In this document: piece by piece, positions 17,000 to 47,972 of the stretch | Position numbering within the stretch: position 1 is the first letter of the stretch | How the letters are laid out: every line of letters starts with the position of its first letter | Source of the DNA: Paraglaciecola sp. MB-3u-78 | Lineage (GTDB): Bacteria; Pseudomonadota; Gammaproteobacteria; Enterobacterales; Alteromonadaceae | Direction of reading: 5' to 3' | NCBI RefSeq assembly: GCF_002835935.1 | Contig: NZ_PJCF01000086.1 | Location: 1 to 64,000, forward strand | DNA length: 64,000 nt | Position numbers and translations under genes: made by a program | The notes under the pieces: model-generated | Told to the model about the DNA's origin: nothing | Databases searched by the model: none | Seen by the model: the letters and a program-made list of their open reading frames with translations, nothing else

Positions 17000-18280
17000 T
17001 TGAGTACACAAATTGACAGACATAGCATTGATGACGCGCTATACATTTATCTTCAGGACAACAGCAAGAAGTGGTACGCACGATTTCAATTGTTTGGTAA
17101 ATGGTATTGCAAATCGACCAAGGAAGTTGGAAAAGACCAAGCCATTGCCAAAGCACAGTTGCTGCGTATGGAATGGAAAATCAAAGCTGAAACAGGAACG
17201 CTAACAAAAAGTAAGCGTTTCCGAGATGTTGCCGAAAAAGCCATTGCCTGTATGGAGCTCGAATTGGCTAATGGTGGTGGCATAGCGAGCTACCGAGAAT
17301 ATATTCATGTTTTAAAAAGATACCATGTTACTTTTTTCGACCGCATTTACATCACCTCTATTGACCATCAAAAGCTTAGAGAGTTTGATGTCTGGCGTAC
17401 ACAACAAGCTAAAAGGGAGCTGACCAAGTCAACCATTCTGACTCACAACGCGGCAATGCAGATGGTCTTCAAGCAAGCGATAGAAAATCAATGGATGTTG
17501 CCTATACAAGTGCCTGTTCTTTCAAACAAAGGCGTCCAAGGTACTAGACGAGCATCATTCACACCGGATGAATATGAACACTTAGTATTTAGCAACGCTG
17601 AAATGATGAAGAACAGCAGAAAGCAAGTTACCGCAGACATTAGACAGCTACTGTTTTGTTACATGGAATTTGCTATCAACTCTGGACTAAGACCGGGAAC
17701 CGAACTAGACCATCTGACTTGGGGAGATATACAAGTTGAGTCACACGATCACAAGAGCCGGTTTTTCATCACCGTTAGAAAAGGAAAAACAACCAAACAT
17801 ACTGGAACGCGCCAAGTCGTTTGTAAGCAAGGTATATTTGATGTTATTCAACTTCTGATACTAAAACACAAGAACCGCAAAGCGACAGACTTATTGTTTC
17901 GACTACCAAACGGAGATACAACAAACGAACTCGGACCGACCTTTTCTCGGCTGCTCAAAGAATGCGATATGAAAGAGTCACCAAGTGGCACTCGTACGCT
18001 ATATTCACTGCGACACACCTATATTACCTGGGAATTAATGGCACAAAGTGTGTCTATAGACGTTCTGGCTAGACAGTGTGGCACCAGTATCCAAATGATT
18101 GAACAACACTACAGCCATGTTGTGCCGAAAATGTTCAGCAACCAATTGTCAGGTATGGATATGCCTGTTGAGGCCAAAGAGATTAAAGACCGATTCGATG
18201 TGCCTGATAAGACAAAAGAGTTGTTCGCCAAGAAAGCTAAGGCATGGGCTGACAATTATAGAAAACGTGGATGTATTTAA
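17000..18280 (+). CDS. int: Tyrosine recombinase (island integrase)
   Basis: This 426-aa integrase would catalyse integration and excision at tRNA-Leu. There is an N-terminal arm/core-binding region, then the catalytic domain with SGLRPGTELDHLTWGD (Arg231), VRKGKTTKHTGTR (the beta-hairpin lysine), LYSLRHTYITWEL (Arg338, with the first His of the box replaced by Tyr335, as in one integrase branch) and SIQMIEQHYSHV (nucleophile Tyr371). It starts with TTG at 17000, with AAGGAT six bases upstream; no ATG is better placed. It reads inward from the left junction. No excisionase gene was recognised nearby, though the micro-ORFs at 18.7-19.0 kb are of suitable size but not of xis type. Confidence 0.93.
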   Translation: MSTQIDRHSIDDALYIYLQDNSKKWYARFQLFGKWYCKSTKEVGKDQAIAKAQLLRMEWKIKAETGTLTKSKRFRDVAEKAIACMELELANGGGIASYREYIHVLKRYHVTFFDRIYITSIDHQKLREFDVWRTQQAKRELTKSTILTHNAAMQMVFKQAIENQWMLPIQVPVLSNKGVQGTRRASFTPDEYEHLVFSNAEMMKNSRKQVTADIRQLLFCYMEFAINSGLRPGTELDHLTWGDIQVESHDHKSRFFITVRKGKTTKHTGTRQVVCKQGIFDVIQLLILKHKNRKATDLLFRLPNGDTTNELGPTFSRLLKECDMKESPSGTRTLYSLRHTYITWELMAQSVSIDVLARQCGTSIQMIEQHYSHVVPKMFSNQLSGMDMPVEAKEIKDRFDVPDKTKELFAKKAKAWADNYRKRGCI

Positions 18281-19231: not shown

Positions 19232-21199
19232 ATGAACGCCGCCCCATCAATTGAAGCAATTTTATTGCAAGTTCATCAAAGCCTCGAATTACCTCCATAC
19301 ACGACTAAACAAAAAGCTTCATTCGCGCAACTCAAGAGGCCTTTAAACAAACATTACGAACAACTGAATGAAATACTTGATGGAATATATCGCGCACTTG
19401 AAATTCATAACGATGAATCGGCTTGTGCAGATCTAAGTACCCACATTGTTAATTTCGCACTATTTCAGAAGGCACTAGAGCTCAAAACCTGGACCTTTAA
19501 TGCAGATGCAAAGCAGGTTATTTGGCAACTAATTAGTCACTCATACGTTCCTGGCATTGCAAGAGTTATGGCGTTTTGGCATCTTGATGATGTAACTGAC
19601 AAAGGAATGCCTGGAGGGCGTTTCTGGTATTTACCGACAGAAACAGAAGATCGTTTGAGAGTCATGATGCCTGTAGAACAAGTTTGTGCTTGGCTACTCG
19701 ACCTGATTGGTATTCCATTGGATAGAATTCGAGAAACCCGTTTAAATAACAACGATCCTGATAATTTAATTCGGAATATATACAACTGGAAGAGTGGTAA
19801 GGTCCCCCGATATGATACGATTAAAAACAGCTTTCCTGACAAAAGCGATATAGAATTTAAAGGCTGTTTATATGTTGACAGTTCAGCGGCTGTTGAAATC
19901 CAACTAGAAACAGTTGCCAAGTTTATTCAATTTAAAAATCTATCTTCGGAAGATTTAATCCACGAAATACCTATTAGAAACTCTAGTGAGATTGATAAAA
20001 TCATCGCTGGTAATGGTAAGTTAGAAAATATTAAAAACTTCATTAAATTGATGTCTATCCGATATGCTCAACCAACCTTTAAAACTATCAGGCAGAGGCT
20101 TCATATAGCTAAAGCAATACAAGATGGTTACAAGCGCTTAATTAAATATTTGTGTCCATGTGTTTCACCGAAAAATATGGATCTTGCACAAAACAAAGTT
20201 TTACAACTTTGCCATATTTATAAATATATCTATAACCTAACAATTGAAGCGCATCGGTTAAATCACGGAGAGTTAGCAGAAAATGAGTGGTTTGACGGCA
20301 AGCTTCCCTTAATAGATAAACACAGTTTGTTCTTATCTGTTGCACCTTCCATGTTTACTTGCTCGTCTTCATTACTTGGTGAAATACTTACAAAGCGATT
20401 TAATGGTATGAAATCAAGTGACCCGTTAATGGATCTTTTTGATGAAAATAAGGATACGACGATCGACTTATTTAAGTATAAAGTAGATGAGCAAGCTAGA
20501 TGGGCCAGTGAAACGATAGCCATAGATGTACTGCAAAAAAATGTTACGAAAGGCTCGCCGTGGAGATCATTTCAGAAAGAAGACCGTTACTGGGTATTGA
20601 CGCAAGTTATTCAAAGTTTAGCTCATAACCCCAAAGCTTTTAACGCTGGACTGAACCGTTTAAAAGAAGTAGCAACTAGCCTATTTGAGGAAGCAGGGAT
20701 TATTCAGCTTGAACTGAACTATTTGGTCGACATGGATACAAGCAAACGACCTAAGAACATTCAAGAAACAGTTGAGTATTTACTTGCAGAAATAGAGAAA
20801 AATGAAGGATATCAAATTTGGCAAGCACCGGCTTTGGCAGCCAAAGCAAAACACTGCATAGCCTTAAATGAGTTTAAATCTGCAAGTCGTTTTTTTAAGG
20901 AGGCACTAGATGCTTGCAGTGAGAGAAGTTATGGCCCACTAAGGGGGTTTATAGCCAGAGATACTTTGGCAACTTTACTACAAATTGAAAAACTCAACAA
21001 AAATAATCATGAACGGTATTTACGTGAAATGATGGCTAACGATGTTTTTGAAATAAAAAACCCTTTTATTGAAGTAAGGCTGGAAAGCGTCGCGCGTGAT
21101 TTAAATACTTACTTTTGGGATGAACTCTACAAGCCTTATCATAGAATCGCAAAGCTTAAGCCAGCGACAGATAGCCCCTTTTTGAGAAAAAACCACTGA
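19232..21199 (+). CDS. 655-aa protein of unknown function, possible HTH and TPR-like region
   Basis: I do not recognise this family. The start ATG at 19232 has AAGGAAA upstream. The protein is soluble with no signal peptide. Around residues 160-190, NLIRNIYNWKSGKVPRYDTI has the look of a Cro/XRE-type recognition helix region (NxxxGKxxP), suggesting DNA or regulatory binding. The C-terminal third (YQIWQAPALAAKAKHCIALN then EFKSASRFFKEALDACSER) resembles a tetratricopeptide pair. No nuclease, ATPase or transferase motif was seen. It is followed 80 bases later by the HEPN-like/LOTUS gene in the same direction, and divergently by two micro-ORFs. Its position at the edge of a defence cluster makes a defence or regulatory role plausible but unproven. 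Confidence 0.75.
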   Translation: MNAAPSIEAILLQVHQSLELPPYTTKQKASFAQLKRPLNKHYEQLNEILDGIYRALEIHNDESACADLSTHIVNFALFQKALELKTWTFNADAKQVIWQLISHSYVPGIARVMAFWHLDDVTDKGMPGGRFWYLPTETEDRLRVMMPVEQVCAWLLDLIGIPLDRIRETRLNNNDPDNLIRNIYNWKSGKVPRYDTIKNSFPDKSDIEFKGCLYVDSSAAVEIQLETVAKFIQFKNLSSEDLIHEIPIRNSSEIDKIIAGNGKLENIKNFIKLMSIRYAQPTFKTIRQRLHIAKAIQDGYKRLIKYLCPCVSPKNMDLAQNKVLQLCHIYKYIYNLTIEAHRLNHGELAENEWFDGKLPLIDKHSLFLSVAPSMFTCSSSLLGEILTKRFNGMKSSDPLMDLFDENKDTTIDLFKYKVDEQARWASETIAIDVLQKNVTKGSPWRSFQKEDRYWVLTQVIQSLAHNPKAFNAGLNRLKEVATSLFEEAGIIQLELNYLVDMDTSKRPKNIQETVEYLLAEIEKNEGYQIWQAPALAAKAKHCIALNEFKSASRFFKEALDACSERSYGPLRGFIARDTLATLLQIEKLNKNNHERYLREMMANDVFEIKNPFIEVRLESVARDLNTYFWDELYKPYHRIAKLKPATDSPFLRKNH

Positions 21200-21279: not shown

Positions 21280-22107
21280 GTGAAAAACGAAGAATTTGTG
21301 GATGAAGTACTAAGGAAAGTAGGAAGGAACGTGGTTCTTTTTCAACAGCTTGAGCAACTGTTTAAGTTTATTGTCGCTAATGGCAATCTCGCTGGATTTA
21401 CCAGTGAAATCAAAACACTAAAACAACAACAGGAAAACAAAGTAAATAAGCAAACGATGGGGACCTTGGTTGGGGAATATGTCGAAAGTTCAAACCCAAT
21501 GTTAGAGGCTGGCTCGCACGAGCCCGAGCAACTGGATGAAGCATATTTATCATTCAGTTTCAGGATTAAGTTTGATGAAGATTATTATCAAAGTCAGAAA
21601 GCAACTCTCGCCCAATTAGTCTCAGATAGAAATGATCTGATTCATCATCTATTACCTCGCTTTAATATAAATTCTGCTAAAAGTTGCGAAGCGCTAGGCC
21701 AAGAACTTGATGAACAGGCAGAAAAAATTAGGCTCGAAATCAAAAACGTACAATCAGTTGCTAAGGCTTTGCACAAAGGACGAGAGGAATTAGGTGATTA
21801 CTTGCAATCCGAGAAAGGCAGAAAAGAACTAGAATTATCTTTTTTAAGGCAAAGCCATTTAGTACTTATGCTTGGAGACATCGCCACTCAAATAAGTAGA
21901 GAAGACGGGTGGGCTTTAATTAGCTCAGCTGGCCACCTAATCAAGGAACATGCACCAGAAGAGCTTGAGAAAATGAAAGAAAAGCATGGATATAGCTCAC
22001 TAAAGAAACTTATCCAAGCCAGTAAAATTTTTGATATACACGAAGAAGCCACACCAAAAGGAGGAGCTAGAATTTTGTATAGATTGAAAGCGGAATGGGT
22101 AACTTGA
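21280..22107 (+). CDS. HEPN-like plus OST-HTH/LOTUS domain protein
   Basis: The 275-aa protein ends in an OST-HTH/LOTUS domain (residues about 207-275: DGWALISSAGHLIKEH, HGYSSLKKLIQASKIFDIHE, GARILYRLKAEW), a winged helix often bound to RNA or guanine-rich nucleic acid. Upstream, SDRNDLIHHLLPRF at residues 116-129 holds R117-N-D-L-I-H122, the Rx4H pattern of HEPN ribonucleases, in an all-helical region. A helical linker (EQAEKIRLEIKNVQS) joins the two. RNA cleavage guided by a LOTUS reader is a reasonable hypothesis. A pure structural role is the alternative. The start is GTG at 21280 with AAAGGA at about 10 bases. It may form a pair with the 655-aa gene. Confidence 0.75.
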   Translation: MKNEEFVDEVLRKVGRNVVLFQQLEQLFKFIVANGNLAGFTSEIKTLKQQQENKVNKQTMGTLVGEYVESSNPMLEAGSHEPEQLDEAYLSFSFRIKFDEDYYQSQKATLAQLVSDRNDLIHHLLPRFNINSAKSCEALGQELDEQAEKIRLEIKNVQSVAKALHKGREELGDYLQSEKGRKELELSFLRQSHLVLMLGDIATQISREDGWALISSAGHLIKEHAPEELEKMKEKHGYSSLKKLIQASKIFDIHEEATPKGGARILYRLKAEWVT

Positions 22108-22940: not shown

Positions 22941-22990
22941 TTGACAACAAGAGCCATGAGTCGTAGATTATCCGCTAATCAAAATGATTA
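22941..22990 (+). promoter_or_regulatory. Promoter and candidate operator of the WYL/helicase operon
   Basis: TTGACA (22941-22946), a 17-base spacer and TAGATT (22964-22969) form a near-consensus sigma-70 promoter. At 22976-22990 lies TAATCAAAATGATTA, a perfect 15-bp palindrome (TAATCA-AAA-TGATTA), sitting about where transcription would start. A repressor bound there would block the promoter, and the first gene of the operon is a WYL regulator. Confidence 0.65.
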
Positions 22991-23038: not shown

Positions 23039-23953
23039 ATGCAGAATAACGAACTTGAACAGCTCAACTTTGCCCAGAAGCGCCGCCTGGCGTTTATCGA
23101 CTTTTTATTGTTGTTTAAAGGCTCCTTTTCCCGTGGTGACTTAACTAATAAATTTGAAATGGGTATGGCCAATGCTACGCGAGATATTGCGCTGTATCGT
23201 GAACTGGCACCAGATAACTGCGAGTTTGATAATCCAGGTAAACTCTATCGCCAAAGCAAGCTCTTTAGCCCTTTATTTGAGCATGACGCCCGCAAAACTC
23301 TGGTCAAGTTAGCCAATAACATTAGTGATGGTTTTGATGCCATCGGCGATATACAGTTTCCCGTCGAAGCCCCAAGCCAGCTTAACGTGCCGGATATTTT
23401 TATCGTCGCCCGTCTGGTGCAGGCCATACTCAATAAAAAAGCGGTTAGTGTAATTTATACCTCTTTAAGCAGTGGCTCAGCCAGCCGTGAACTGGTGCCC
23501 CATAGTATTATTGATAACGGATTGCGTTGGCATGTAAGAGCCTTCGATCGCAAATCCTCTTCGTTTCGCGATTTTGTGCTCACCCGTATCAGCAAGGTAA
23601 AACTACTCGACGACAGTGACGACAAAGCGCCCGAACAACATGAAGTCAAACTCGAAGATCATCAGTGGCAGCGAATTATGCCACTGCAACTGATACCACA
23701 CCCCAACAATGTGCAGTTTCCCACTGCTATAGAAATGGATTACGGCATGAGTGCTGGCGTGCTTAATCTAAACGTACGAGCCGCTTTGGCCGGTTATTTG
23801 TTAAGACGCTGGAACGTGGACTGCACCGAAGATGCCAGATTAATAGGCGGCGAATACCAGCTTTGGCTGCGCAACCAACAAAGTCTTTACGGCGCTGAGA
23901 ATTTGGCGATAGCGCCGGGATATAAAACAGATATGGAGGTCAATAATGGTTAA
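23039..23953 (+). CDS. WYL-domain transcriptional regulator (BrxR/CapW-like)
   Basis: The 304-aa protein has an N-terminal winged helix ([35 protein letters not shown]), a WYL domain ([20 protein letters not shown], residues about 160-180, with [12 protein letters not shown] after it) and a C-terminal WCX extension ([15 protein letters not shown]). Homodimeric regulators of this architecture repress BREX, CBASS and other defence operons and are thought to sense nucleic-acid signals of infection. ATG at 23039 has AAGGA upstream. The gene overlaps the helicase start by 8 bases and is first in a six-gene unit, so it probably autoregulates the whole operon through the palindrome at 22976-22990. 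Confidence 0.88.
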
Positions 23954-26900
23954 GTTAGAAGACATAAAAAAAGACGCACAAATCAGAGGTATTCAGGCTG
24001 AAGAGATTGTGCGAGTGGTGCAAGTGGAGGCGATTGGTGCCGATGCCATTACTGTTTATTACAAAGACAGTCAGGGTCAATTGGGCGAGCAGATGCTGTT
24101 TCGCACTGACGAAGTAAGGCTGGAACTCGCTAAAACCGGTCGCCCTTGGGCGTTTGATGCTCCTGGTGCAGAATTTAAGCTGGGCCTCGAAGCTTACCGT
24201 ATTACACAGGCAGCGCTGTTTGATCCAATGATGGCCGTTCATACCTCGAACGTTGACCCTTATCCTCATCAGATTTCCGCAGTCTATGAGCATATGTTAC
24301 CCAAACAGCCCCTGCGCTACGTCTTGGCAGACGACCCAGGTGCGGGTAAAACGATTATGGCGGGCTTACTCATTCGTGAGTTACTCATGCGAGCTGATGC
24401 TAAACGTATTCTAATCGTCTCGCCCGGCTCACTCACCGAGCAATGGCAAGATGAACTATTAGAAAAATTTGGGGTAACCTTTGATATTTTTAGTCGTGAA
24501 AAACAAGAGCAATGCGCATCAGGCAACTACTTTGATGAGACGGACCAGCTTATTTGTCGGCTCGATCAACTCTCCCGAAATGAAGACTTCCAGGAGAAGC
24601 TTAAAAATACCGAATGGGACTTAATCATTGTTGACGAGGCCCACAAACTATCCGCCAATTATTTCGGCAATAAGGTTAATAAAACCAAACGCTTCCTGTT
24701 AGGGGAATTGCTCGGCTCTATTACTCGCCACTACTTACTGATGACAGCAACACCGCATAACGGTAAAGAAGAAGACTTCCAAATTTGGCTATCGTTGCTC
24801 GATGGTGATCGCTTTTATGGTAAATTCCGTGAAGGTGCCCATAAGGTCGACGTAACAGACATGATGCGTCGCATGGTTAAAGAAGAGCTGCTCAAGTTTG
24901 ACGGTACGCCACTGTTTCCAGAGCGCAGTGCCTACACGGCTAACTATGCCTTATCGCCGCCAGAGGCATCACTTTACGAGCAAGTTACCACCTACGTGCG
25001 CGAAGAAATGAATCGTGCAGATAAACTCGACGGTAAAAAGAAGAATAATGTTGGTTTTGCCCTAACCATGCTGCAACGCAGATTGGCCTCTAGCCCTGAA
25101 GCAATCTATCAATCATTAAAAAGACGACGAAAACGTTTAGAAGCAAGGCTTGAAGAAACCAAATTATTAGCAAGGGGGCAGGCTGTTCAGCGAGAAGGTA
25201 TTGCTGAAACACTGGCTGAATATACCGCTAATAATAAAAACGGTTTGCCTGACAATTATGACGAGTTGGATGAAGATCTCAGTGCAGAGGAATACGAGTT
25301 ATATGCCGAGCAAGTTGTGGATCAAGCATCCGCGGCAGAAACTATTCCCGAACTTGAAGCCGAAATCCTGAGTCTTAAGGATCTTGAATACCAATCGCTC
25401 ACCGTTGTGCAATCTGGTAACGATAAAAAATGGGAAGAACTCTCTTGCCTGTTACAAGATAAGCCTGAAATGTTTACGGTGAGCGGAAGCAGAAGAAAGC
25501 TAATCATCTTTACCGAACACAAAGATACCCTCAATTACCTAGTAACCAGGATCGGCGACATGCTTGGCAATACCAATGCAGTGCGCACCATTTCTGGGGC
25601 TACTAATCGCGATGCCAGACGAAAAATTCAGGAAGAATTCCGTAACGACCCCGAAGTTGTGGTGCTGGTAGCAACCGACGCTGCAGGCGAAGGCGTTAAT
25701 TTACAAAACGCCAATTTAATGGTGAATTATGATTTACCCTGGAATCCAAATCGATTGGAGCAACGTTTTGGTCGTATTCACCGAATCGGCCAAACAGAGG
25801 TGTGCCACCTTTGGAACCTCGTAGCCAGTGAAACTCGTGAAGGGGAAGTTTTCCAAAAACTGTTCGACAAAATAGAAATCGAAAAGAAAGCGTTGGGTGG
25901 AAAAGTATTCGACATATTGGGTGAGGCCTTCGATAACATCTCCCTAAAAGAGCTATTAGTGCAAGCAATACGTTATGGGGAAGACCCTAAAACCAAAGCA
26001 AAAATGAATGAGGTAATTGAAGGCGCGCTCGACTCAGAACACCTGAAAGAAATCATCAAACGCAATGCACTGGTCGATCAGCATATGGGGCTAGATGAAC
26101 TTTATGCGGTAAAAGAAGAAATGGAAAAAGCTGAAGCACGTAAACTGCAACCCTATTTTATTCGTGCATTTTTTACCGAAGCCTTTCAAACCTTAGGTGG
26201 TGAAACCCGTGCGCGTGAAGCGGGTCGTTTTGAGGTGCGCTATGTACCCGCAGCCCTTCGTGAGCGGGATCGTATTATCGGCGAAAGTCGAACGCCTGTG
26301 CTCAAAAAATATGAACGCATCTGTTTTGAAAAACAACATGTTCGCCAGCCCGGCAAACCCATGGCAGATATGATCCATCCTAGTCATCCGCTGATGCATT
26401 CAGCAACCGATTTAGTCCTACAAGCACATAGGCCAAAGCTCAAACAAGGTGCCGTATTAGTCGACCCCAATGACGACAACACCGAACCCAAAGTTTTATT
26501 TATGGTAGACCACACTGTGCGAGAGAGTGGTCATGATGGTGTAGTGGCATCACGGCGTTTACAGTTTGTTGAAATTGATGAACAGGGTAAGGCCACCAAT
26601 GCAGGTTGGGCACCACACTTAGATTTGCAAGCCATTGACGATTACGATCACAAACTGGTGGCAGACATACTACAAGCAGACTGGCTCAATAATAATCTAG
26701 ACGCAATGGCACTTAACCATGCTTCTCAACAATTAGTGCCAGAGCATTATGCCGAAGTTAAAGACCGGCGAGAAAGGCAGGTGACTAAAATTCATGCAGC
26801 AGTGAGGGAACGCCTAGTAAAAGAAATCAATTACCAGCAGGATCGTGCAATTAAATTGCAACTTGATGTTGAAGCCGGAAAACAACCACGTGTCGCACCA

Positions 26901-27485
26901 GAACAATTTAAACGCAAGGCGGAAGAGCTGGCCGCCAGGTTGGAGCAAAGAGAAAGCGAATTGATAGCCAGAAAAAATGTGGTCTCCAGCACACCAGTGG
27001 TCATAGGCGGAGCATTGGTCATACCCCAGGGTTTATTGTCATTGCGCAAAGGTGATACGCCGTTTGCCATTGATGCCGCTGCCCGTGCACGGGTGGAACG
27101 AGTGGCCATGAATGCCGTCATGCAAGCAGAGCAAGCATTTGGTCATTGTGTTACCGATGTCGGCGCTGAAAAGTGTGGTTGGGACGTGACTTCGCGCCCA
27201 CCCGTTAATGCCGACGGCTCCATCAAGCCAGACCGCCATATTGAAGTAAAAGGCCGCTCCAAAGGCCAAAGCACCATTACCGTGAGTCGAAACGAAATAA
27301 TTTATGGCTTAAACCAAGCTGAAAAGTTTATTCTAGCCATTGTTGTAGTCGATGCAGACTCGCATGAAGGTCCGTATTACGTAAAAAATCCTTTTAATGT
27401 CGAACCTGATTTTGGCGTAGCCAGCATTAATTATGATCTCAGTGATCTGTTATCGAAGGCTGTAAAGCCGGAGCATAGTTTATGA
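23946..27485 (+). CDS. SNF2-type helicase with C-terminal DUF3883 nuclease-like domain
   Basis: This 1,179-aa superfamily 2 translocase has Walker A DPGAGKT near residues 130-137, DEAH at 230-233, [10 protein letters not shown] (motif III), [13 protein letters not shown] (motif V) and [12 protein letters not shown] (motif VI). A helical spacer follows. The end (residues about 1075-1160) is DUF3883: [15 protein letters not shown] and ITVSRNEI give a D...ExK pattern like PD-(D/E)xK nucleases. It resembles the helicases of DISARM-like and other methylation-linked defence systems. It overlaps the WYL gene by 8 bases and the PtuA-like gene by 4 bases. The likely role is DNA translocation and degradation of unmodified DNA. 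The nuclease activity is inferred from the motif. Confidence 0.9.
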
Positions 27486-28921
27486 AATTAGAAAAAATAA
27501 CGCTGGAAAATTTTCGCTGCTATCAGCATTTGGATATTGATCTCCACTCAAACATCACAGTATTGACTGCAAACAATGGTCAAGGTAAAACGTCAATTCT
27601 AGATGCAATTCGTATTGCGCTGTGGCCATTTATCAGTCAATTCGATTTAGCAAAAACAGCCTACGCTGACCCAGCCAACACCATTATCATTGATGATGTG
27701 AAAATCTCAAAATCCGCTGAGCAGAGATCACCAATATTCGGTGCATTGGATGAAATGGCGAGACAATTTCCTTCATCCATTACAGCAGTTGGTTGCTACA
27801 AAACAGGAATAAGTAGTTGGCAACGTTATCGTGATAGCGAGGCTAAAAAATCACAAACCAAAGATGATGTAGGTGCAAAGGCATTAAAAGATTCGGCTAG
27901 TGAACTTCAAAGTACAATAAGAAATTTAAGTTTGCCACCTAGAACTTTGCCGGTATTTGGATATTACGGAACAGGTCGCCTATGGCGGGAAAAGCGACTT
28001 ATGGATGGTAAGAAAGGTGCAAAAGAAAGAAATAACGAACAGATAAGAACCTTTGCTTATCGTGATTGCTTAGACCCAGCATCCAGTTTTAAACAGTTTC
28101 AAGATTGGTTTACTTCAGCGTACCTAAAAGTTATGGAGTATCAAATCAAACAGTTAGAGGATGGCGCAACGTTTATCGAAGTACCTAACGAGTTACGCCG
28201 TCCGGTAAAAGTAGTTCAAGATGCGGTAAACGAAGTGTTAAAACCGGTAGGTTGGCAGAACCTCCAATACAGCGAAAAATACGATAAATCGTTAGTCTTG
28301 AAACATCCAAATCATGGCGTGATGAAAATATCTCAATTAAGTGACGGCATTAAAAATATGTTAGCGATGATTGCTGATATCGCTTATCGCTGCGTATTAC
28401 TCAATGGGCATTTACAAGACCAGGCCGCTAAGCAATCCCCAGGTGTTGTTATGATTGATGAAGTGGATATGCATTTACACCCGCAATGGCAGCAAACAGT
28501 TATAGCCTCCCTGCGTCAGGCATTTCCAAATATTCAATTTATTGTAACGACTCACAGCCCCCAAGTTCTGTCTACAGTGCCGGCAGAAAGTATTCGCGTT
28601 ATCAAACACGAAGTTGATATCAATACAGATGAAATCATTTCGACAGCTAATCCACCAACAAAACAAAGCCGGGGGGTAGCCAGTGCAGATGTTATGGCAG
28701 AATTACAATTGGTCGACCCTATCCCAGATGTAGAAGAAGCTTACTGGCTAACTCAATACAAACAACTCGTTACCCAACACGGACATGAAAATGTTCAAGG
28801 AAACCTATTAAAAGAAAAAATCATTGAACACTTTGGTGAGTCTCATCAAGAATGGCTCGAATGCGAACGATTGATTCGCTTACAAGCCATGAAGGCCAAA
28901 CTGCCAAAGCGCAACAATTAA
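27482..28921 (+). CDS. ptuA: Septu-type PtuA ATPase (AAA/ABC-like)
   Basis: The 479-aa protein is a RecF/SMC-like ATPase: [11 protein letters not shown] at the N-terminus, Walker [10 protein letters not shown] (residues about 30-38), signature-like [10 protein letters not shown], Walker [17 protein letters not shown] and switch [10 protein letters not shown]. It is followed 9 bases later by a TIGR02646-type HNH protein. The pair is the composition of Septu (PtuA-PtuB), in which PtuA controls the PtuB nuclease and nucleotide loss triggers DNA cleavage. It is unusual that the start overlaps the helicase stop (ATGA), embedding the pair in a larger operon where free-standing Septu has only two genes. 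Confidence 0.85.
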
Positions 28922-28930
28922 GGGGCGAAG

Positions 28931-29575
28931 ATGCATAAACTAAATCGCCCTATACCGCCAACATGTTTGTGCCAGTATCAACATGGAAGAGATAATTGGG
29001 GCAATGTTACGCCAGAACACAAAAGTGAAATCTGGCTAAAGCTCGACGAAATGCAGCAGTATCGCTGCGCTTACTGTGAAGCTGAAATAAAAACAGACCG
29101 AGCTAACAGTAACTCACACATAGAGCATTTACGCCAGCGCAGAGCCAATAGTTATCCTCAAGGAACTTTTCTGTGGAGCAATATATTTGGCTCTTGCAAC
29201 CGTCAAGACAGTTGTGGCAAGCATAAAGACTACCTACCGCGATATATCCATGAAGACCTTATCAAGATAGACGACGAAGACCCTGAAGCGTTTCTTGAGT
29301 TTTTATCGGACGGCAATGTCGTACCAGTCAAAGGATTAAACCCTAATCAGAAACATCGTGCTGAGGAAACAATTCGCATATTTAATCTAAATGGTGCCTT
29401 ACGCAAAATTCGAGAATCAGCTGTAAAAGGCTATATGCAAACAGCAGAAGAACTTGCAAGCTATGCCGCAGAATTCGACGAAGCCGAATGGTTGCCACTG
29501 CTGCAAAACGAATTAGACAATATAAAAAAATTGCCTTTTACTACAGCCATTAAACATGTGTTGCTACCGGCATGA
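28931..29575 (+). CDS. ptuB: Septu-type PtuB HNH nuclease (TIGR02646 family)
   Basis: The 214-aa HNH endonuclease shows CAYCEAEI (first CxxC zinc pair), SHIEHLRQR with the catalytic His, FLWSNIFGSCNRQDSCGKHKD (second Cys pair and the Asn/His part of the fold) and a helical tail that probably contacts PtuA. This is the usual PtuB layout. The gene sits 9 bases after ptuA and 9 bases before the methyltransferase gene. The strong link to ptuA supports a joint function. Whether it also works with the DUF1156/DUF499 proteins is open. Confidence 0.85.
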   Translation: MHKLNRPIPPTCLCQYQHGRDNWGNVTPEHKSEIWLKLDEMQQYRCAYCEAEIKTDRANSNSHIEHLRQRRANSYPQGTFLWSNIFGSCNRQDSCGKHKDYLPRYIHEDLIKIDDEDPEAFLEFLSDGNVVPVKGLNPNQKHRAEETIRIFNLNGALRKIRESAVKGYMQTAEELASYAAEFDEAEWLPLLQNELDNIKKLPFTTAIKHVLLPA

Positions 29576-29584
29576 GAGAATTAA

Positions 29585-32518
29585 ATGACCAAAATTTATA
29601 GCCCAAAAAAACTGATCGAAGTGGCATTGCCGTTAGATGAAATTAATATTGCTTGCGCCCACGAAAAACAACCAGGTATAGGTGCTCACCCAAGAGGGTT
29701 GCATCTTTGGTGGGCTCGCAGGCCATTGCCTGCAGCTCGTGCAGTGATTTTCTCACAAATGGTTAACGACCCTGGCTACCAACAAGGTGATGGTTTTAAG
29801 TACGGCGTCAATAAAAATGAAGCCGAAATAAAGCGGGAAAAACTGTTTCAAATTATTCGCGATTTAGTCAAGTGGGAAAACACAAATAACGAAGAGGTGA
29901 TTAATCGTGCTCGCGAAGCCATTAAAGAGAGTTGGTGTGAAACCTGTTATTTAAACCGCAATCATCCTCAAGCGTCCGAATTGTTTAACCCTGACAAACT
30001 ACCAGCCTTTCACGATCCTTTTGCTGGTGGTGGTGCTATCCCATTAGAGGCACAACGCTTAGGACTAGAAAGTTATGCCAGTGATTTAAACCCTGTGGCA
30101 GTCATGATCAACAAAGCCATGATCGAAATTCCACCGAAGTTTGCAGGTCAGGCACCTGTTGGCCCAATACCAGACTCAGATAAGACTAACAAAAAGAAAG
30201 CAACCAAAGATGCTTTTGAAGATTGGAGTGGTGTAAAGGGCTTGGCCGAGGATGTTCGGCGTTATGGCCATTGGATGCGCGAAGAAGCCATGAAGCGTAT
30301 TGGACATTTGTACCCCAAGGTTCTGATCACCGATGAGATAATCGCTGAGCGGCCTGATTTAAAGGCCTATGCGGGAGAAGAGTTAACTGTAATCACTTGG
30401 ATATGGGCACGCACGGTCAAAAGTCCTAACCTAGCTTTTAATCATGTAGATGTTCCTTTAGCTTCGAGTTTTGTGCTTTCTAGTAAGAAAGGCAAAGAAG
30501 CTTATGTTCAGCCTGTTATTGCTGGTGATACCTATCATTTTGAAGTGAAAGTAGGGAACCTTCCAACTGAGGCAAAGTTAGGAACCAAAGTAGGAAATGG
30601 TGGAAACTTTAAGTGCCTAGTATCTGGAACTCCTATACCTGTTAAAGCGATTCGCGAACAGGGGCAGCAAGGTACATTTAGTAAGCGTTTAATGGCTGTA
30701 GTTGCAGCGGGGAAATCAGGGCGAGTTTATCTGGCACCAACATTAGCAATACAAAAGGTTGCGGATTCAGCCCATTCAAAATGGGGGCCAACTACACAGA
30801 TAAATCACAACCCTCGGGATATTAGAACTCAATTATACGGCTTGAATCAATATGGTGATCTTTTCACTCCGCGACAATTATTAGGGCTAACCACTTTTTC
30901 AGACTTAATTGATGAAGCTCGGATTAAGGCCATTAGTGATGCAAAAGCGGCTGGTATGAGAATAGATGAGTTAGGGATTGATCAAGGAGGAATGGGAACC
31001 ACCGCTTATGGCGAAGCACTATCCGTATATTTAGCTTTTGCATTAGATAGACTTGCTGACTACAACAGCAGTATTGCTACATGGAAGGCTTCTGGTGAGC
31101 AAGTAATGCAAACATATAAGAGACAGGCACTGCCTATGACATGGGATTTCCCTGAATCAAATATTATGGGAGATAAGTCGATATGCTGGCTCAAAGCGAT
31201 AAAGTATACATCTGACAATTTAAATGCTTGCACTAAGTTAAATTCGCTTGTACCAGGTATTGTATTACAAGCGGATGCTGCAACACAAAATGTTTCAACA
31301 AACAAGGTTATTTCGACCGACCCTCCTTACTACGATAATATTGGCTATGCGGACTTATCTGATTATTTCTATGTTTGGATGCGCCGTTCTTTAAAAACTG
31401 TATTTCCAAATTTGTTTGCGACATTGGCGGTACCTAAACTAGAAGAATTGGTTGCGACTCCTTATCGACATGGTAGTAAGGAAAAAGCCGAAACATTCTT
31501 TTTAGATGGTATGACAAAAGCCATTCATAGAATGGCTGAGCAAGGTCATCCAGCATTTCCGGTCTCAATTTACTATGCGTTCAAGCAATCCGAAACCAAA
31601 GAAGGTAGTACATCTAATACAGGTTGGGAAACATTTTTAGAGGCGATTATTTTGGCTGGATTTTCTATTGATGGTACCTGGCCAATGCGTACTGAATTAG
31701 CTAATCGTATGATTGCTGCTGGTACAAATGCTTTGGCTTCGTCGGTAGTGCTAGTTTGTAAAAGAAGGGCGGTTAAAGCTCCATCGATCTCTCGCCGAGA
31801 TTTTCAACGTGAACTGCGGGAGCAAATGCCCGACGCTTTGGAAGCCATGATTGGAAGCGAAACAGGCTCCACGCCCATCGCCCCGGTGGATTTAGCCCAG
31901 GCAGCCATTGGACCAGGTATGGCTATTTATTCTAAATACGCGGCGGTACTGAACCAGGATGGCAGTAATATGAGTGTACACGAAGCACTGATTTTAATTA
32001 ACCGCGCCATTACCGAATACTTAAACCCCGACAGCGGCAACTTTGATGCCGACACCCTCTTTTGTGACGACTGGTTTAGCCAATACGGCTGGAGTGAAGG
32101 CCAGTTTGGCGAGGCGGATACTCTGGCACGCGCCAAAGGCACTTCGGTAGAAGGTGTGCGTGATGCCGGTGTCATTGAAGCCGGTAGTGGTAAAGTACGT
32201 TTATTAAAGTGGAGCGAATATCCCAGTGATTGGGATCCTAAAACCGACTCCCGCACCCCTATTTGGGAAGCTTGCCACCAGTTAATTCGTGCTTTAAATC
32301 AACAAGGTGAAAGTGCAGCAGGTGCCTTATTGGCTCGTATGCCAGAGCGTGGTGAACCTATTCGCCAGTTAGCTTATCACTTATACACACTATGTGAGCG
32401 TAAAAAATGGACAGAGGAAGCCCGCGCCTATAACGAATTGATTGGGTCCTGGCATGGGATTGTAGCTGCCTCACACGAGGTTGGACATAAAGACGAACAA
32501 GCTGGATTTGGCTTTTAA
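29585..32518 (+). CDS. DUF1156 DNA (adenine) methyltransferase
   Basis: This 977-aa methylase starts with the DUF1156 signature ([36 protein letters not shown]). The AdoMet motif [19 protein letters not shown], lies near residue 140 and the catalytic [20 protein letters not shown] near residue 580, the order of amino-methyltransferases. The large intervening part probably reads the target. It lies between ptuB and the DUF499 gene with 9- and 12-base gaps. By analogy with related systems it would mark host DNA so that the helicase and nucleases spare it. The specificity cannot be predicted from sequence by eye. Confidence 0.9.
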
Positions 32519-32530
32519 GGGAGATTAGTA

Positions 32531-35365
32531 ATGAGTTTAAAACCATGGCGCGAAATTGCACGCCCACACAAAGACGTATTAGACGGTACATTTAAACAAT
32601 CTGAATTTGCCGCGGATATTACCCAGGTAGCCAATGGTACGGCACCGGCTGAATATCAGGACGCCAAAAAATTCTTTTCTCGGACGTTTATTACTGAAGG
32701 AATGCGATTACTGTTGATTTCAGTGTCTCAACGCTTGGCTGGTTTAGGCGGCGACCCGGTTATTCAACTACAAACTGCCTTTGGCGGTGGTAAAACCCAT
32801 ACTATGCTGGCGGTATTACATTTAGCCAGAAGAAGTGTGAGTACCAATGAATTGGAAGGTGTATCTCCTTTGTTGGATCAGGCAGGTATTCATGACTTGC
32901 CTGCAGCCAAAGTGGCGGTATTAGATGGGATCAACATGTCAGTCAGCCAGGGGAAGAGTCACGGGACTCTTGTAGCCAACACTTTATGGGGTGAAATGGC
33001 CTGGCAACTACTGGGTGATGAAGGTTACAACTTGGTGGCGGCCAGTGACCGTGATGCTACAGCGCCAGGCAAAGACGTATTGGTGGCCTTGCTAACTCAA
33101 GCAGCACCTTGCGTGGTGTTGGTTGACGAATTACAAAAATTCTTTAGCGATCTAACGCCCGGTAAGCAGCTCAATGCAGGCAGTTACGAAAGCAATTTGA
33201 AGTTTATCCAGGCCCTCACTGAAGCGTTTAAAGCGGTGCCCAATGCCATTTTGTTGGCATCTCTCCCCGAATCAGAAACAGAAGCTGGTGATGCTTTTGG
33301 GCAGAAAACATTGGTAGCACTTGAAAAACATTTTGGCAGGGTGGAAGCTGTTTGGAAGCCGGTAGCAACAGAGGAGGCCTTTGAAATTGTGCGCAGACGC
33401 CTGTTTGACCATGCGGGGGAACGGGCTCAGGTTGAAGGTATTAGCCGCCAGTTTTGTGACTATTATCGCCTGCATGCGCAGCACTTTCCCGTGGAAACTC
33501 AGTCGAACCAATATTTCGAGCGTATGTGTCATTCGTACCCCATCCATCCAGAGATTTTTGACCGTTTATATGAGGACTGGTCAACCCTGGATAAATTTCA
33601 AAGAACTCGCGGTGTGCTGCAATATATGGCAGTTATTATCAATCGCTTATGGAATGACAATAATCAGGACGCACTCATTTTGCCAGGGTCTGTGCCATTA
33701 GATGACAGTTTAGTTAGAAATAAAAGTATTCATTATTTACCTCAGGGGTGGGAGCCTGTTATTGAGCGTGAAGTCGACGGTACACGTTCTGAACCACATA
33801 GAATTGACGGTGATGATACGCGTTTTGGTAGCGTACAAGCAGCGCATAGAACGATGCGCACGATATTCTTAGGGAGCGCCCCTGCAGGAAAAGATCAGGT
33901 GGTTAAAGGTATCCAGCTTGAACGAGTATTGCTTGGTAGCACACAACCAGGCCAAACTGTAGGGGTGTTTGTAGATGTACTGAAAAGGTTGCGCGACCGC
34001 TTGCATTACCTCTATTCAGATCAGGACAGGTTTTGGTTGGATACTAAGCCTAATTTGCGTAAGGAGATGGAGAGCCGAAAACAAAATATTGATAAGTTGA
34101 TGTTAAAAGAAGAACTCAAAAAACGTGTGAGTAGCGTTTTCGCCCGTCAACATATATTTGCCGGGATCCATGTCTTTACCGATTCCAACGATGTACCCGA
34201 CGATTATGGGACAGGACCGAGATTAGTAGTGCTGGCACCTAACGAAGGGTATAGCCGCACGGACGCTACTGCTGCGGTTAATGCTGCCGAAAAGATTTTA
34301 CAATTCCGCGGAGAACAGCCACGCCAAAAACGTAATCGTTTAGTTTTCCTGGCCGCCGACTATGATGTTGTCAGCCGATTAAATGATAGCGGAAGAACGT
34401 ATTTGGCATGGAGGGAAATTGTATTAGACCTCCAGGAAGACAGGCTCAATCTTGATGCTTTTCAAGCAAAAATTGCAAAGAAAAGCGCGGAGGCAGCTGA
34501 AAGAGCATTGACACAAATGGTGCGAGAAACCTATAAGTGGATAATTTGTCCCCAACAATTTAAGCCTACCGACCAAAAAATTGACTGGGAGCCGGTCGCT
34601 GTATCAACCAACGCATTAAACCTAGTACAGGAAATTGAAAACAAACTGCGAGAGGAAGAGTGGCTAACCACAGAGTGGTCACCGATACATTTACGAAACT
34701 TGATGGCGCAGTGGTACATCAAAGACGGCCAAAAAGACGTAAGTGCATTAAAGATTTACCAAGACACTTGCCACTATCTTTATTTACCGAGACTGGTCAA
34801 TGACCAGGTTTACAAAAATGCACTGACTAAGGGCCTTGAAAACGAAGACTTCTTTGCGTATGCGGCAGGTAAGGACGGTGACCACTATCTGGGCTTCCGT
34901 TTTGGTAACAATGGTTTGCCAACCTTGGATGAATCCTGTTTGCTAATCGACCGAGACGCAGCCTTAGAATACCGAGAACGCACAAAACCAGCCCCACAAC
35001 CGGAGCCCACTCAAACTGTTGGCAGTGGGGATGCTTTTACACCTACGCCGATGAGTGGCCTAAATGGTGGACTACCTCAACCAACATCATTAGGCGAGCC
35101 ACCACAAACCGATTCAATCAAAACAGCTGTTAAGCGACAGTTCTATGGCAACATTGACCTAGACCCGGTTAAGGCCAAAATGGACTTTGCCACCATCGTT
35201 GATGAAGTGGTGCAGCAATTTACTGCCAAGCTTGGTGTTGATGTATCTATAACTGTTGAGATTCAAGCTAAGTCAAAAGATGGCTTTGATGAAGCGATGC
35301 AGCGCACTATAAAAGAAAATTGTAATGTGCTGCGTTTTAGTAGTGCTGAGTTTGAGGAAGATTAA
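32531..35365 (+). CDS. DUF499 P-loop ATPase
   Basis: The 944-aa protein has the DUF499 hallmarks: [18 protein letters not shown] at the N-terminus, Walker [13 protein letters not shown] (residues 82-93), Walker [13 protein letters not shown] near residue 200, and [21 protein letters not shown]499 ATPases are repeatedly found beside DUF1156 methyltransferases and SNF2 helicases in defence islands. Their exact role is unknown, and large multimeric DNA-associated ATPase is a reasonable guess. It is the last gene of the operon. The start is ATG at 32531, with GGGAGA at about 8 bases. Its C-terminal about 80 residues follow a Pro/Thr-rich linker ([12 protein letters not shown]). Confidence 0.88.
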
Positions 35366-39356: not shown

Positions 39357-40274
39357 ATGACTACAGCAAGTCCACTTGCGCTGTATCTAGGCAGGCTTGC
39401 GCCTAATAGTCGGCGCTCAATCAGATCTCAGCTATATAAAGTGGCTAATATTATGGAATGGCCACTGGATAAACGCGATGCCATGTTCCATCAAGTCGAT
39501 TATCAGATGGCATGTCAGATAAAAGTAGAGCTCATTCAGCACGGCTCATCTGCCAAATCGGTTAATCGCGCCATGTCAGCCATTCGAAACGTGGTTAAAG
39601 TCGGTGTACTAATGGGTTTAGTGGCGGAAAACCAGCTTATTCAACTCAGTGCCATCAAGCTGGAAAAGACCTCTCAGCATCAAGGTAATCCGCTTAACGC
39701 CACGCAAGTGAGTGAGCTATTTGCTTATTTAGCCAAAGACACCAGCATCATCGGCGTGCGTAACATCGCTATTTTCGCTGTGTTACTCGGTGCTGGTCTT
39801 CGTCGTAGTGAGTTGGTTGCGCTCAAGCTGAGTGATTTAACACTGTCCGAGAGCCATTTAGTCGTGCAAAAAGGCAAAGGCAACAAACGTCGAACGGCCT
39901 TTTTGCCTAAGTGGTGTGTTGAGCATATTCATGCATGGCTATTACTTCGAGACTATGACACTGGTTATGTGTTTAATCCGGTGAATAAGTCTAATCGCGT
40001 TAATGTTAATCGAGGTATCACAACCGAAATCGTCTATTTGTTGGTGCGTAACATGGCAAAGCATGTAGGTCTGGCCACGGTATCACCGCATGACTTACGT
40101 CGTACCTATATCACTCGCTTATTGGAGCAAAACATCGATTTGAATACGGTGCGCCTAATGGCTGGACACGAAAACATCAGCACCACCGTTGTTTATGACA
40201 AGCGTGACAATAAAGTCATGCAAAAAGCAGCGGCAACACTGAGTTACGGCGCATCCAACGTGGCAACATCATGA
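39357..40274 (+). CDS. XerC-like tyrosine recombinase (second recombinase)
   Basis: This 305-aa XerC/D-like recombinase has a SAM-like N-terminal domain and all catalytic residues visible: GLRRSEL (Arg I), VQKGKGNKRR (Lys), SPHDLRRTYITR (His-x-x-Arg), LMAGHENISTTVVYDK (His/Trp position and nucleophile Tyr). It has no arm-binding extension, so it differs from the island integrase at 17000. Its stop overlaps the start of the AAA ATPase by 4 bases, indicating joint action. An inverted sequence TGCTAG...CTAGCA lies upstream at about 39275-39304. It may resolve dimers or drive a separate mobile module. Confidence 0.9.
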   Translation: MTTASPLALYLGRLAPNSRRSIRSQLYKVANIMEWPLDKRDAMFHQVDYQMACQIKVELIQHGSSAKSVNRAMSAIRNVVKVGVLMGLVAENQLIQLSAIKLEKTSQHQGNPLNATQVSELFAYLAKDTSIIGVRNIAIFAVLLGAGLRRSELVALKLSDLTLSESHLVVQKGKGNKRRTAFLPKWCVEHIHAWLLLRDYDTGYVFNPVNKSNRVNVNRGITTEIVYLLVRNMAKHVGLATVSPHDLRRTYITRLLEQNIDLNTVRLMAGHENISTTVVYDKRDNKVMQKAAATLSYGASNVATS

Positions 40275-42265
40275 GTCGTCAGGCTATAACAGCGTTAGCG
40301 GCGCACTATGCCACAGCATTGATCACAAACGGTTTAACTGAACGCCAGTTCAAAGCACTGGATACGGACGCGCTGGCAAAGCTCGCTGGCATAACGGTAC
40401 ATCACAACAAACCATTGTCGTTAAAACAGGTTAAGACTGCGCTGGCTACCATCACAAGTGATAGCCTAAACGATGTGGTGTCACATAATGCGCGACTACT
40501 TTGTGATGTCTATCGAGTGCCTGTGGCTTGCATGGATATTATTGAATACATCATTGCAATCAGTGCATCGAGTGCGCTGCGGCAACTTATCGATGAGCTG
40601 TATTTTAGTGATTTAGCAGACGATATTCATCGGACTTTACTTAGCCAGTTTGGATTAGATGAAAGCACCTGTTTTGAGTATCTCGATAGCTTGACCTCAA
40701 GCGGATTTATTCGCTCTTCAACACTCACCGACACCAATGACGTGGTGCTACCAGATAACCAAGTTCGGTTATTAACTGTGTCTAAACTTGCCGATACAGA
40801 AGCTTATCTCGCGCACTTATTGGTAAAAAGCCCATCGCCTGTATTTAAAATGAAAGACTTTGCTCATCTGGATATCGATACGCTTTGTCGCTATCTAAAT
40901 AGTGCATCTAAGCAAGCGCTCAGCGGCGTTAACATTCTGATTTACGGTGATGCCGGAACAGGTAAAACAGAGCTGGCCAGAGCCCTTGCCAAGTCGATAT
41001 CCAAAAGCCTTTACGAGACACGCACCGCAAGTGATGGACTTAAACAGGCACAAGACAGGTATGACTTAATTGGTCATAGCCGATTGCGTTTGCAATACCT
41101 ATCTTCGATGCAATTACTGCTAAGCAGTAGCACCACTTCAATGTTTCTGGTGGATGAATGCGAGTCTATCTTTGCCGACAGTGATGAGTATTACGCCAAA
41201 GACACATTGCACCGACTGTTAGAAAGTAATCCGGTGCCGTGTATCTGGATAACCAACCATGTTCAATGCCTTGAGCCGAGCTTTATTCGCCGCTTTAAAC
41301 TGGTGCTTGAAGTCGGTGCCATCGAAGGCAAACACATCGAGCCATTGGCAAAACAGGCGTTTCGTGGTTTAGGTGTTAAGCAAGACTATATCGATACTCT
41401 ACTCACCACGCCGCATATCACACCAGCACATATAGGCAATGCAGTGCATGTGGCAAAAGCGATAAAGGTATCCGGCCAAGCCGCACAAAAGATGATATCG
41501 GATGTTGTTCACAACACGCTTAATGCATCTTCGTTATTGGACACACCACTTCGCTACAAACCAGAAATGCCGTTTGATGCAAGTCTATTAAACTTCAAAC
41601 AAGGTAATGACGTTACCAAGCAGATAGAAACGGCATTGTGGCATCAAGCACCGGTTCGCATTTTGTTATCTGGCGAGCCTGGCACAGGTAAAACAGCGTA
41701 TGCGCATTACTTAGCGCAGCAACATGACTTAGCGCTTGTGTCAGTGCGTTGCTCCGACGTTTTAAGCAAGTATGTTGGCGAAAGTGAGTCCAACATAGCC
41801 AGTATTTTTAATGACGCACAGCAGCGTGGTAGCGCGTTATTACTGGATGAAGTTGACAGTTTATTAGTGTCACGTGAGCGTGTTAGTGAGCACCATAACA
41901 TCCAGCTTATCAATGAGCTGTTAACACAAATTGAATGTTTTGAGCAGCCAGTGTTTGCCGCCACTAATTACGCCAAACTATTGGATAAAGCCGTACTGCG
42001 CAGATTTGATTTTAAACTCGAAGCGCAGTGCCTAAACGTTGAACAGGCATTCCGGTTATTCAAGCGAGTTTTATCACTTAGACAGATAAGCAAACAGGAA
42101 CGACAACAACTGTCTAGGTTAACCAATTTAACCGCAGGTGATTTCGCTATTGTGGCGCGTCGCATGCGGTTTCAACCCGATGGTGATTTTCGGCAACAGG
42201 CATTGACACTGCTTATCGAAGAAAACCGTCACAAGCAACCCAACCAACCTATCGGTTTCATCTAG
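40271..42265 (+). CDS. Double-AAA+ ATPase coupled to the recombinase
   Basis: The 664-aa protein carries two AAA+ modules. The first has Walker A GDAGTGKTE near residue 225 and Walker B SMFLVDECESIF. The second has GEPGTGKTA near residue 467, Walker B ALLLDEVDSLL, and RRFDFKL (arginine finger region). The second resembles Cdc48/FtsH-type AAA domains. The N-terminal about 200 residues have no recognised domain. The gene overlaps the recombinase by 4 bases and is followed by DUF6641 and DUF2787 genes, a set I associate with integrative elements and large plasmids of marine gammaproteobacteria. It may remodel recombinase or replication complexes; this is inference. Confidence 0.85.
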   Translation: MSRQAITALAAHYATALITNGLTERQFKALDTDALAKLAGITVHHNKPLSLKQVKTALATITSDSLNDVVSHNARLLCDVYRVPVACMDIIEYIIAISASSALRQLIDELYFSDLADDIHRTLLSQFGLDESTCFEYLDSLTSSGFIRSSTLTDTNDVVLPDNQVRLLTVSKLADTEAYLAHLLVKSPSPVFKMKDFAHLDIDTLCRYLNSASKQALSGVNILIYGDAGTGKTELARALAKSISKSLYETRTASDGLKQAQDRYDLIGHSRLRLQYLSSMQLLLSSSTTSMFLVDECESIFADSDEYYAKDTLHRLLESNPVPCIWITNHVQCLEPSFIRRFKLVLEVGAIEGKHIEPLAKQAFRGLGVKQDYIDTLLTTPHITPAHIGNAVHVAKAIKVSGQAAQKMISDVVHNTLNASSLLDTPLRYKPEMPFDASLLNFKQGNDVTKQIETALWHQAPVRILLSGEPGTGKTAYAHYLAQQHDLALVSVRCSDVLSKYVGESESNIASIFNDAQQRGSALLLDEVDSLLVSRERVSEHHNIQLINELLTQIECFEQPVFAATNYAKLLDKAVLRRFDFKLEAQCLNVEQAFRLFKRVLSLRQISKQERQQLSRLTNLTAGDFAIVARRMRFQPDGDFRQQALTLLIEENRHKQPNQPIGFI

Positions 42266-47887: not shown

Positions 47888-47972
47888 TGGTACCAGTGGG
47901 CGGACTCGAACCGCCACTCCCGAAGAAACCAGATTTTGAATCTAGCGTGTCTACCAATTCCACCACACTGGC
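47888..47972 (-). tRNA. tRNA-Leu (anticodon CAA), complete, island-borne
   Basis: The 85-base gene has encoded CCA. The acceptor GCCAGTG pairs with CACTGGT. The D-arm contains TGGTAGACAC. The anticodon stem CTAGA/TCTGG encloses the loop TTCAAAA, giving anticodon CAA for UUG codons. The long variable arm (TTTCTTCGGGAGT region) is typical of tRNA-Leu, and the T-arm has GGTTCGAGTCC. It sits inside the island's right junction, downstream of the split host 5' half and the native promoter, so it probably replaces the interrupted host gene by co-transcription and RNase P processing. Confidence 0.95.

Follow-up and report, generated by a model that had tools for sequence, protein, structure and literature searches.

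Hma (helicase-methylase-ATPase) is a bacterial anti-phage system of three genes, hmaA, hmaB, and hmaC, which drew the attention of its authors through its frequent co-occurrence with type I Septu (Payne 2021). "Septu in Hma systems" is used as an example of one defence system within another in a 2025 paper (PMC12255303), and PADLOC-DB v2 includes the HEC families, or Hma embedded candidates (PMC10855318, PMC12988326). Hma has been renamed DUF499-centred BREX-related (BR) by Rakesh and Krishnan in 2026, with Type-1 BR consisting of just these three genes, and dyads of an OLD-ABC ATPase and an HNH protein are listed among the auxiliary or back-up effectors of BREX and BR systems (PMC12839542). 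Here we describe a member of this kind in Paraglaciecola sp. MB-3u-78 (contig NZ_PJCF01000086.1). The operon occupies positions 23039–35365 of the window, that is, of the whole 64,000-nucleotide (nt) stretch of DNA that was analysed, and it is an Hma system headed by a WYL regulator of the BrxR type, with a type I Septu pair (ptuA and ptuB) lodged between hmaA and hmaB. The original prediction, made from the letters of the window, knew of no named system with such a set, but the set is Hma plus Septu and the arrangement is already in print. Besides settling the name, the analysis shows the extra pair behaving as cargo. Our reading, with a probability of roughly 0.77, is that Hma forms a restriction-like first layer of defence and that Septu is a co-regulated, swappable back-up effector carried by it.

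An open reading frame (ORF) call on the window placed six ORFs on the forward strand at the positions given before, with an 8-nt overlap, a 4-nt overlap, and gaps of 9, 9, and 12 nt between them, so that the six coupled genes of the original prediction are borne out by their coordinates. Matches to Pfam or PADLOC families span nearly the whole protein in five cases, the WYL protein being the exception. Following the WYL gene, hmaA (23946–27485) encodes a SNF2/RapA-like helicase of 1179 residues, matching the PADLOC HmaA model with 2213 bits over residues 1–1178. It holds the helicase motifs GAGKT and DEAH and ends in a NOV_C (PD-(D/E)XK-like) domain with the motifs GWDV and EVKG; this domain, with its GWD and EVKG, is the C-terminal restriction endonuclease of Hma and Type-1 BR, and is predicted to be active. 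A DUF1156 methylase of 977 residues with a variable middle is encoded by hmaB (29585–32518; HmaB, 1747 bits), and a DUF499 AAA+ ATPase of 944 residues, with the Walker A motif FGGGKTH, by hmaC (32531–35365; HmaC, 1551 bits). All three core genes of Hma or Type-1 BR are therefore found in the window at full length, in the same order and within one operon, although here ptuAB separates hmaA from hmaB and a WYL gene stands ahead. HmaB was called a 5-methylcytosine (m5C) methylase in the 2021 paper and an N6 methylase in the 2026 paper; in the window protein DPFAGGG precedes DPPYY, an order that fits an amino-methylase, as in the latter.

The Septu pair has the composition of type I, a PtuA ATPase followed directly by an HNH-type PtuB. 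PtuA (27482–28921, 479 residues; PtuA1, 605 bits in PADLOC) is an ABC/OLD-type ATPase in which the Walker A, signature, Walker B, and H-loop motifs are all present, and PtuB (28931–29575, 214 residues; PtuB1, 305 bits in PADLOC) contains the motifs CAYC and HIEH. Among solved structures, PtuA is closest to PtuA 8ee4, the alignment covering nearly the entire protein (309 bits over residues 1–469), whereas PtuB is remote from PtuB 8ee7 (merely 36 bits) and closer to the HNH protein of retron Ec78 (140 bits); 8ee4 and 8ee7 presumably represent E. coli PtuAB. What resembles the effector of Retron I-A (Ec78/Eco7) is PtuB together with the C-terminal region of PtuA. None of the six genes matched a reverse transcriptase in Pfam, msr-msd not having been looked for.

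Other systems compare less well. Neither PglZ nor BrxA/B of BREX was found among the six genes with Pfam and PADLOC, and HmaC shows DUF499 alone in Pfam, without the N-terminal HEPN domain present in a subset of Type-1 BR. The relation to DISARM that the original prediction had suggested proved to be distant. The helicase does resemble DrmD and a methylase lies nearby, but the best DrmD model reaches 391 bits as against 2213 for HmaA. Membership in DISARM was rejected, as neither DrmB nor DrmC appeared among the best 25 families for each of the six proteins and the DrmA model matched the helicase far below HmaA. As for the HEC families, the window resembles them in holding extra defence genes between core hma genes, at the same place as in relatives, and in four relatives the cargo found at this junction is best matched by HEC-01, -07, -08, and -09; in the window, however, the cargo is Septu.

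Searching other genomes for the same arrangement, as had been proposed along with the original prediction, recovered the order hmaA-ptuA-ptuB-hmaB-hmaC again, and in 17 of the 24 Hma-embedded relatives examined ptuA starts inside the same 4-nt overlap with the stop of hmaA. Because the five-gene order recurs and the overlap is shared by these 17, the arrangement is not due to chance, and the overlap suggests translational coupling and a favoured place of insertion. The coupling could also mean, as the original prediction had it, that all the genes build one composite machine, in which HmaABC would recognise unmethylated DNA and call in PtuAB, an integral subunit, to do the cleaving. The tight spacing, the conserved overlap, and the clustering of PtuA with Hma described below speak for such a machine. 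We nevertheless consider it very improbable: 43 of 52 comparable junctions lack a relative of the window PtuA, PtuA is exchanged while HmaA and HmaC stay nearly constant, related pairs occur away from Hma, HmaA retains a nuclease motif of its own, and a natural deletion of the pair in E. coli leaves Hma conserved. The other parts of that prediction fared better, namely a coupled, WYL-headed defence operon whose methylase would mark self, with PtuAB as a possible back-up.

The occupancy of the hmaA/hmaB junction was surveyed through searches with the HmaA or HmaB families, PtuA never serving as a query. Five of these searches were centred on genomes first reached via a PtuA search of genome contigs (46 loci), and the PtuA-search loci of those genomes were excluded; ten lower-scoring or fragmentary matches were left out (G053 C177, two in G101, G139, G603, two in G693, G723 C30, G1300 C33, and G1862). 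The 70 stretches obtained were reduced to 52 comparable ones by removing 2 duplicates and 16 with a contig end or a broken gene at the junction. A relative of the window PtuA occupies the junction in only nine (seven of them with a recognisable PtuB), another insert of more than 300 nt in 30, and 13 junctions are empty. Where HmaA is at least 55% identical to that of the window, PtuA is found in 7, another insert in 8, and no insert in 5 (n = 20); the corresponding figures where HmaA is below 55%, or was not measured (4 loci), are 2, 22, and 8 (n = 32). Thirteen of the 30 loci with other inserts supplied 20 insert proteins, 17 of which match PADLOC families, some of them weakly, including AbiL, HEC-01, HEC-07, HEC-08, HEC-09, and TmtA. 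The presence of PtuAB is therefore sporadic, and this, like the earlier description of the arrangement, largely answers to what had been named along with the original prediction as counting against it. The sequences show hmaA and hmaC outlasting the arrival, replacement, and loss of the pair at this junction, so that PtuAB is not an obligate subunit. Nor is it a replacement for the nuclease of HmaA: a role as stand-in for a lost helicase nuclease was considered and rejected, because the motif is retained in all 26 PtuA-bearing HmaA rows.

Traces of insertion are preserved at some junctions. Three relatives, from Maribrevibacterium, Woeseia, and Grimontia (L025–L027), have the final ~55–65 codons of hmaA duplicated, in truncated form, in the space that separates ptuB from hmaB, so that ptuAB is flanked by direct repeats of 122–175 nt with 85–92% identity. 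The empty form is represented by L087, whose hmaA DNA is ~81% identical to that of L025, and in which the end of hmaA and the start of hmaB match the junction between scar and hmaB in L025. Such scars were sought inside the insert at 56 junctions where it exceeds 300 nt (the PtuA-blind set contributing 39 and the PtuA-search genomes 17), using the last 200 residues of HmaA and the first 200 of HmaB of each locus as queries. Scars of the hmaA 3' end were found in seven (L025, L026, L027, L034, L053, L142, and L153) and of the hmaB 5' end in two (L053 and L132), which amounts to eight loci, and to at most six separate events if L025–L027, with their closely related cargo, share one. Nine control segments of HmaA and HmaB gave no matches, save in L153, where HmaA is split and the control repeated the match of the locus itself. 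No scar was found at the other 48 junctions, nor in the window, where a gap of 9 nt precedes hmaB. In L034 the scar follows ptuB and more genes precede hmaB, which suggests stacking of cargo. Cargo seems to have been inserted repeatedly in L053 (8067–19088), whose 11-kb junction holds PtuAB, four related ORFs of 390–602 residues, duplicates of the hmaB 5' end, and a scar of the hmaA 3' end.

The cargo may have come with a fresh hmaA 3' end, the old end being left behind as the scar. A donor origin, in which a scar would be closer to the empty-site sister than to the intact copy of its own locus, was not supported by the three scars compared, since each of those in L025–L027 is nearest to its own intact copy (85–87%), as against 71–78% between scars. 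This similarity fits gene conversion or separate duplications.

Exchange also reaches into ptuA itself. Between the window and Candidatus Endonucleobacter (L057), HmaA is 88% identical, yet residues 1–300 of PtuA share only 26–40%, while the last blocks of PtuA reach 72, 55, and 79% and PtuB 77%. The comparison with Grimontia and Maribrevibacterium yields the opposite pattern, with 58–90% up to about residue 360 of PtuA, then 53–58%, 38–41% in the last block, and 39–40% in PtuB. Distances of the C-terminal part of PtuA correlate with those of PtuB at r 0.88, as against 0.48 between the N- and C-terminal parts of PtuA, and the solved relatives named above divide in the same manner, PtuA pointing to 8ee4 and PtuB to retron Ec78. 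At the DNA level, L046 (Halomonas alkaliantarctica) and L105 are 94% identical across hmaA and ~150 nt of ptuA, diverge, short matches aside, through ptuB and approximately the first 2 kb of hmaB, and are 88–93% identical again thereafter. Judging from these alignments, the C-terminal part of ptuA travels with ptuB in mosaic genes.

The hmaA/hmaB junction might be a recombinational port for cargo, a proposal to which we give even odds: cassettes would bring an hmaA 3' end of ~120–190 nt, rebuild hmaA, and leave direct repeats, the cargo being replaceable, stackable, and excisable with the operon intact, and recombination within ptuA would reshuffle its sensor parts against an effector part formed by the ptuA tail and ptuB. 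If true, this would offer a concrete mechanism for "guilt-by-embedding". Among the papers listed by literature searches, judged by their titles and the openings of their abstracts, no description of the insertion scars, the insertion mechanism, ptuA mosaicism, or the E. coli deletion was found, although the Payne 2024 preprint on embedding may contain the mechanism or the mosaicism.

Another idea is that PtuAB acts as a guard, being silenced by the Hma complex or monitoring it, and firing when an anti-restriction protein of a phage disables Hma, as PrrC guards EcoprrI. PtuB is nearest to the protein of retron Ec78, whose PtuAB depletes tRNA-Tyr (PMC11555353), and modules of an OLD-ABC ATPase and a nuclease are proposed as back-up effectors in the BREX/BR paper (PMC12839542), both of which favour the idea. 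However, the N-terminal parts of PtuA from L057 and L023 are only 36% identical at 95% identity in HmaA and 96% in HmaC, which speaks against one conserved contact, and related pairs exist without Hma, so that we hold a guard to be rather unlikely. As it would be one form of back-up cargo, its odds and those of our preferred reading are not exclusive.

A natural deletion of the pair occurs in E. coli, where relatives of the window hmaB were found by DNA in 17 of 5426 genomes. A query spanning the junction, taken from one of these, matched 14 genomes. Nine, which have the remnant form, match it over its whole length, and the other five, in which an HNH (PtuB) gene is annotated, over 57%. Five of the former (L169, L170, and L172–L174) and three of the latter (L171, L175, and L176) were inspected, these three having the complete pair; E. 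coli AW1.7 has an intact relative of the operon. The five remnants share one deletion of ~1.55 kb, joining PtuA residues 1–85 to the last ~65–69 residues of PtuB, through which the HNH core and the bulk of the ATPase are lost, and the fusion is frameshifted in three of them. All five keep hmaA, hmaB, and hmaC annotated at full length, and L169 is 99.1% identical in HmaA, 98.2% in HmaC, and 83% in HmaB to a strain bearing the pair. Between the two deletion lineages L169 and L170, the ratio of nonsynonymous to synonymous substitution rates (dN/dS) is 0.075 for HmaA, 0.12 for HmaB, and 0.108 for HmaC, indicative of purifying selection, as against 3.8 for the 85-codon ptuA remnant (dN 0.068, dS 0.018); for HmaC of L169 and L173 it is 0.29 at a dS of 0.003. 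The plain reading is that Hma remains under selection without PtuAB. In L176, which keeps the pair, hmaB is annotated as two pieces. The remnant form of the nine genomes, together with the scars in other taxa, would also be expected if PtuAB were a passenger, neutral or selfish, whose sole benefit is the ride on a maintained operon. This seems most improbable to us, as the motifs are retained across most PtuA and PtuB rows and many junction inserts resemble defence families. Together with the scars and the mosaic ptuA, E. coli lines that have or lack PtuAB in otherwise similar Hma operons make the nesting of one defence system in another, and any dependence of the nested system on its host system, directly testable in a laboratory species.

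Several observations weigh against PtuAB as swappable cargo. Besides the coupling conserved in the 4-nt overlap, Hma-embedded PtuA proteins cluster on their tree, with only 4 of 500 shuffles giving as few label changes, and the HmaA tree shows the same clustering, with 12 changes and none of 500 shuffles as low. PtuAB also tracks Hma above chance, the distances of HmaA and PtuA correlating at r 0.66 (permutation p 0.001). The inserts counted as other may include divergent Septu pairs, since PtuA was recognised by its similarity to that of the window. In E. coli, the ptuA remnant is not uniformly relaxed (dN/dS 0.11 for L169 and L172; other comparisons range from 0.11 to 0.45 or give 3.8), and dS is unequal between genes (0.11 in HmaA and 0.75 in HmaB), from which it follows that alleles have been exchanged.

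On the other side, the PtuA tree of 53 proteins, of which 28 are encoded next to Hma genes, 24 are encoded elsewhere, and one is unlabelled, requires at least 12 label changes, eight of them forced by well-supported branches, compared with a shuffle mean of 17.6. Being fewer than in the shuffles, these changes indicate that a linkage to Hma exists but has been repeatedly broken; single placements are unsure, as the PtuA and HmaA trees are quick trees with several long branches. The correlation with HmaA declines from HmaC (0.97) through the core of HmaB (0.84) and PtuA to PtuB (0.57) and the middle of HmaB (0.11). A composite machine is thus disfavoured by the sporadic junctions, by the swapping of PtuA at constant HmaA and HmaC, by the 24 of 52 labelled rows away from Hma, and by the loss in E. 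coli. The HmaB middle (residues ~290–600), with hypervariable blocks and r values of −0.02 with PtuA and 0.00 with PtuB, evolves independently of HmaA and of both Septu proteins, as expected of a specificity segment.

Away from Hma, PtuA pairs are not always solitary. In L035 (7158–15540) and L040 (3723–9358) a pair of PtuA and a partner lies directly before an SbcC-type gene, in L035 also after a DUF3375 gene, and in L042 a pair follows ccmF. The pair in L035 and L040 looks embedded in a Wadjet-like operon, the DUF3375 and SbcC-type genes of L035 being what we take to be JetA and JetC.

For the preferred reading of a first layer with back-up cargo, family resemblance suggests the following mechanism. 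HmaB would methylate host DNA through its variable recognition segment, and HmaC, as a BrxC-like AAA+ protein, would assemble or license the Hma complex. Unmethylated DNA would be attacked by HmaA, a translocating helicase that bears a nuclease of its own at the C terminus. As a second layer, PtuAB would act as a self-contained ATPase-HNH effector. PtuA oligomers reportedly control PtuB; here they might restrain it and release the nuclease once infection proceeds or Hma is blocked. The target of PtuB could be tRNA, as in retron Ec78 and Septu EcB88, or DNA. The Septu of E. coli ATCC 25922 is reported to act on DNA (PMC11555353), and the likeness of the window PtuB to Ec78 weakly favours tRNA.

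The first gene of the operon (23039–23953, forward strand) encodes a protein of 304 residues with a Pfam WYL domain, homologous to BrxR (289 bits to Protein Data Bank entry 7qfz, followed by CapW and BrxR chains), and like BrxR and CapW it heads a defence operon. By analogy with BrxR, the WYL protein would control the operon (PMC9122601). Scans of arm and spacing revealed no BrxR-type inverted repeat in the 200 nt upstream of the window gene, though 14% of shuffled regions had one in any case; a short shared palindrome is found instead. This candidate operator, ATCAAAATGAT (22978–22988, forward strand), lies between the −10 element and the WYL start and is the sole 11-mer present in at least three of 13 WYL upstream regions (the window, L137, and L166), as against none of 300 shuffled sets, the motif having been chosen post hoc. 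Beyond the window, the unique loci (1.9 Mb) hold three copies of ATCAAAATGAT/ATCATTTTGAT, two upstream of the WYL genes of L137 and L166 and one in L159. A weakly supported promoter-like site, TTGACA-17-TAGATT (22941–22969, forward strand), matches 10 of 12 consensus positions; the scanned region holds 13 such matches compared with a shuffle mean of 26.7. The WYL gene is exchanged too, with 48% identity between the window and Marinomonas at 89% in HmaA, and 96% between the WYL proteins of Marinomonas and Maribrevibacterium.

Upstream of the operon, an ORF matching the PADLOC family "Ankyrin" (19232–21199, 615 bits) is followed by one with an OST-HTH/LOTUS domain (21280–22107), possibly another defence pair. 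Integrase-type ORFs lie on both sides (17000–18280 and 39357–40274), the second directly followed by an AAA protein with an IetA-like C-terminal half (40271–42265). Further on are a UvrD-family helicase with similarity to GajB and DRT-helicase (44476–47184) and, beyond the integrase-type ORFs, a tRNA-Leu(caa) (47888–47972); the Hma region of E. coli L170 and L174 also ends near a tRNA-Leu. Next to the island, the minus strand encodes an IS66 transposase (12706–14322).

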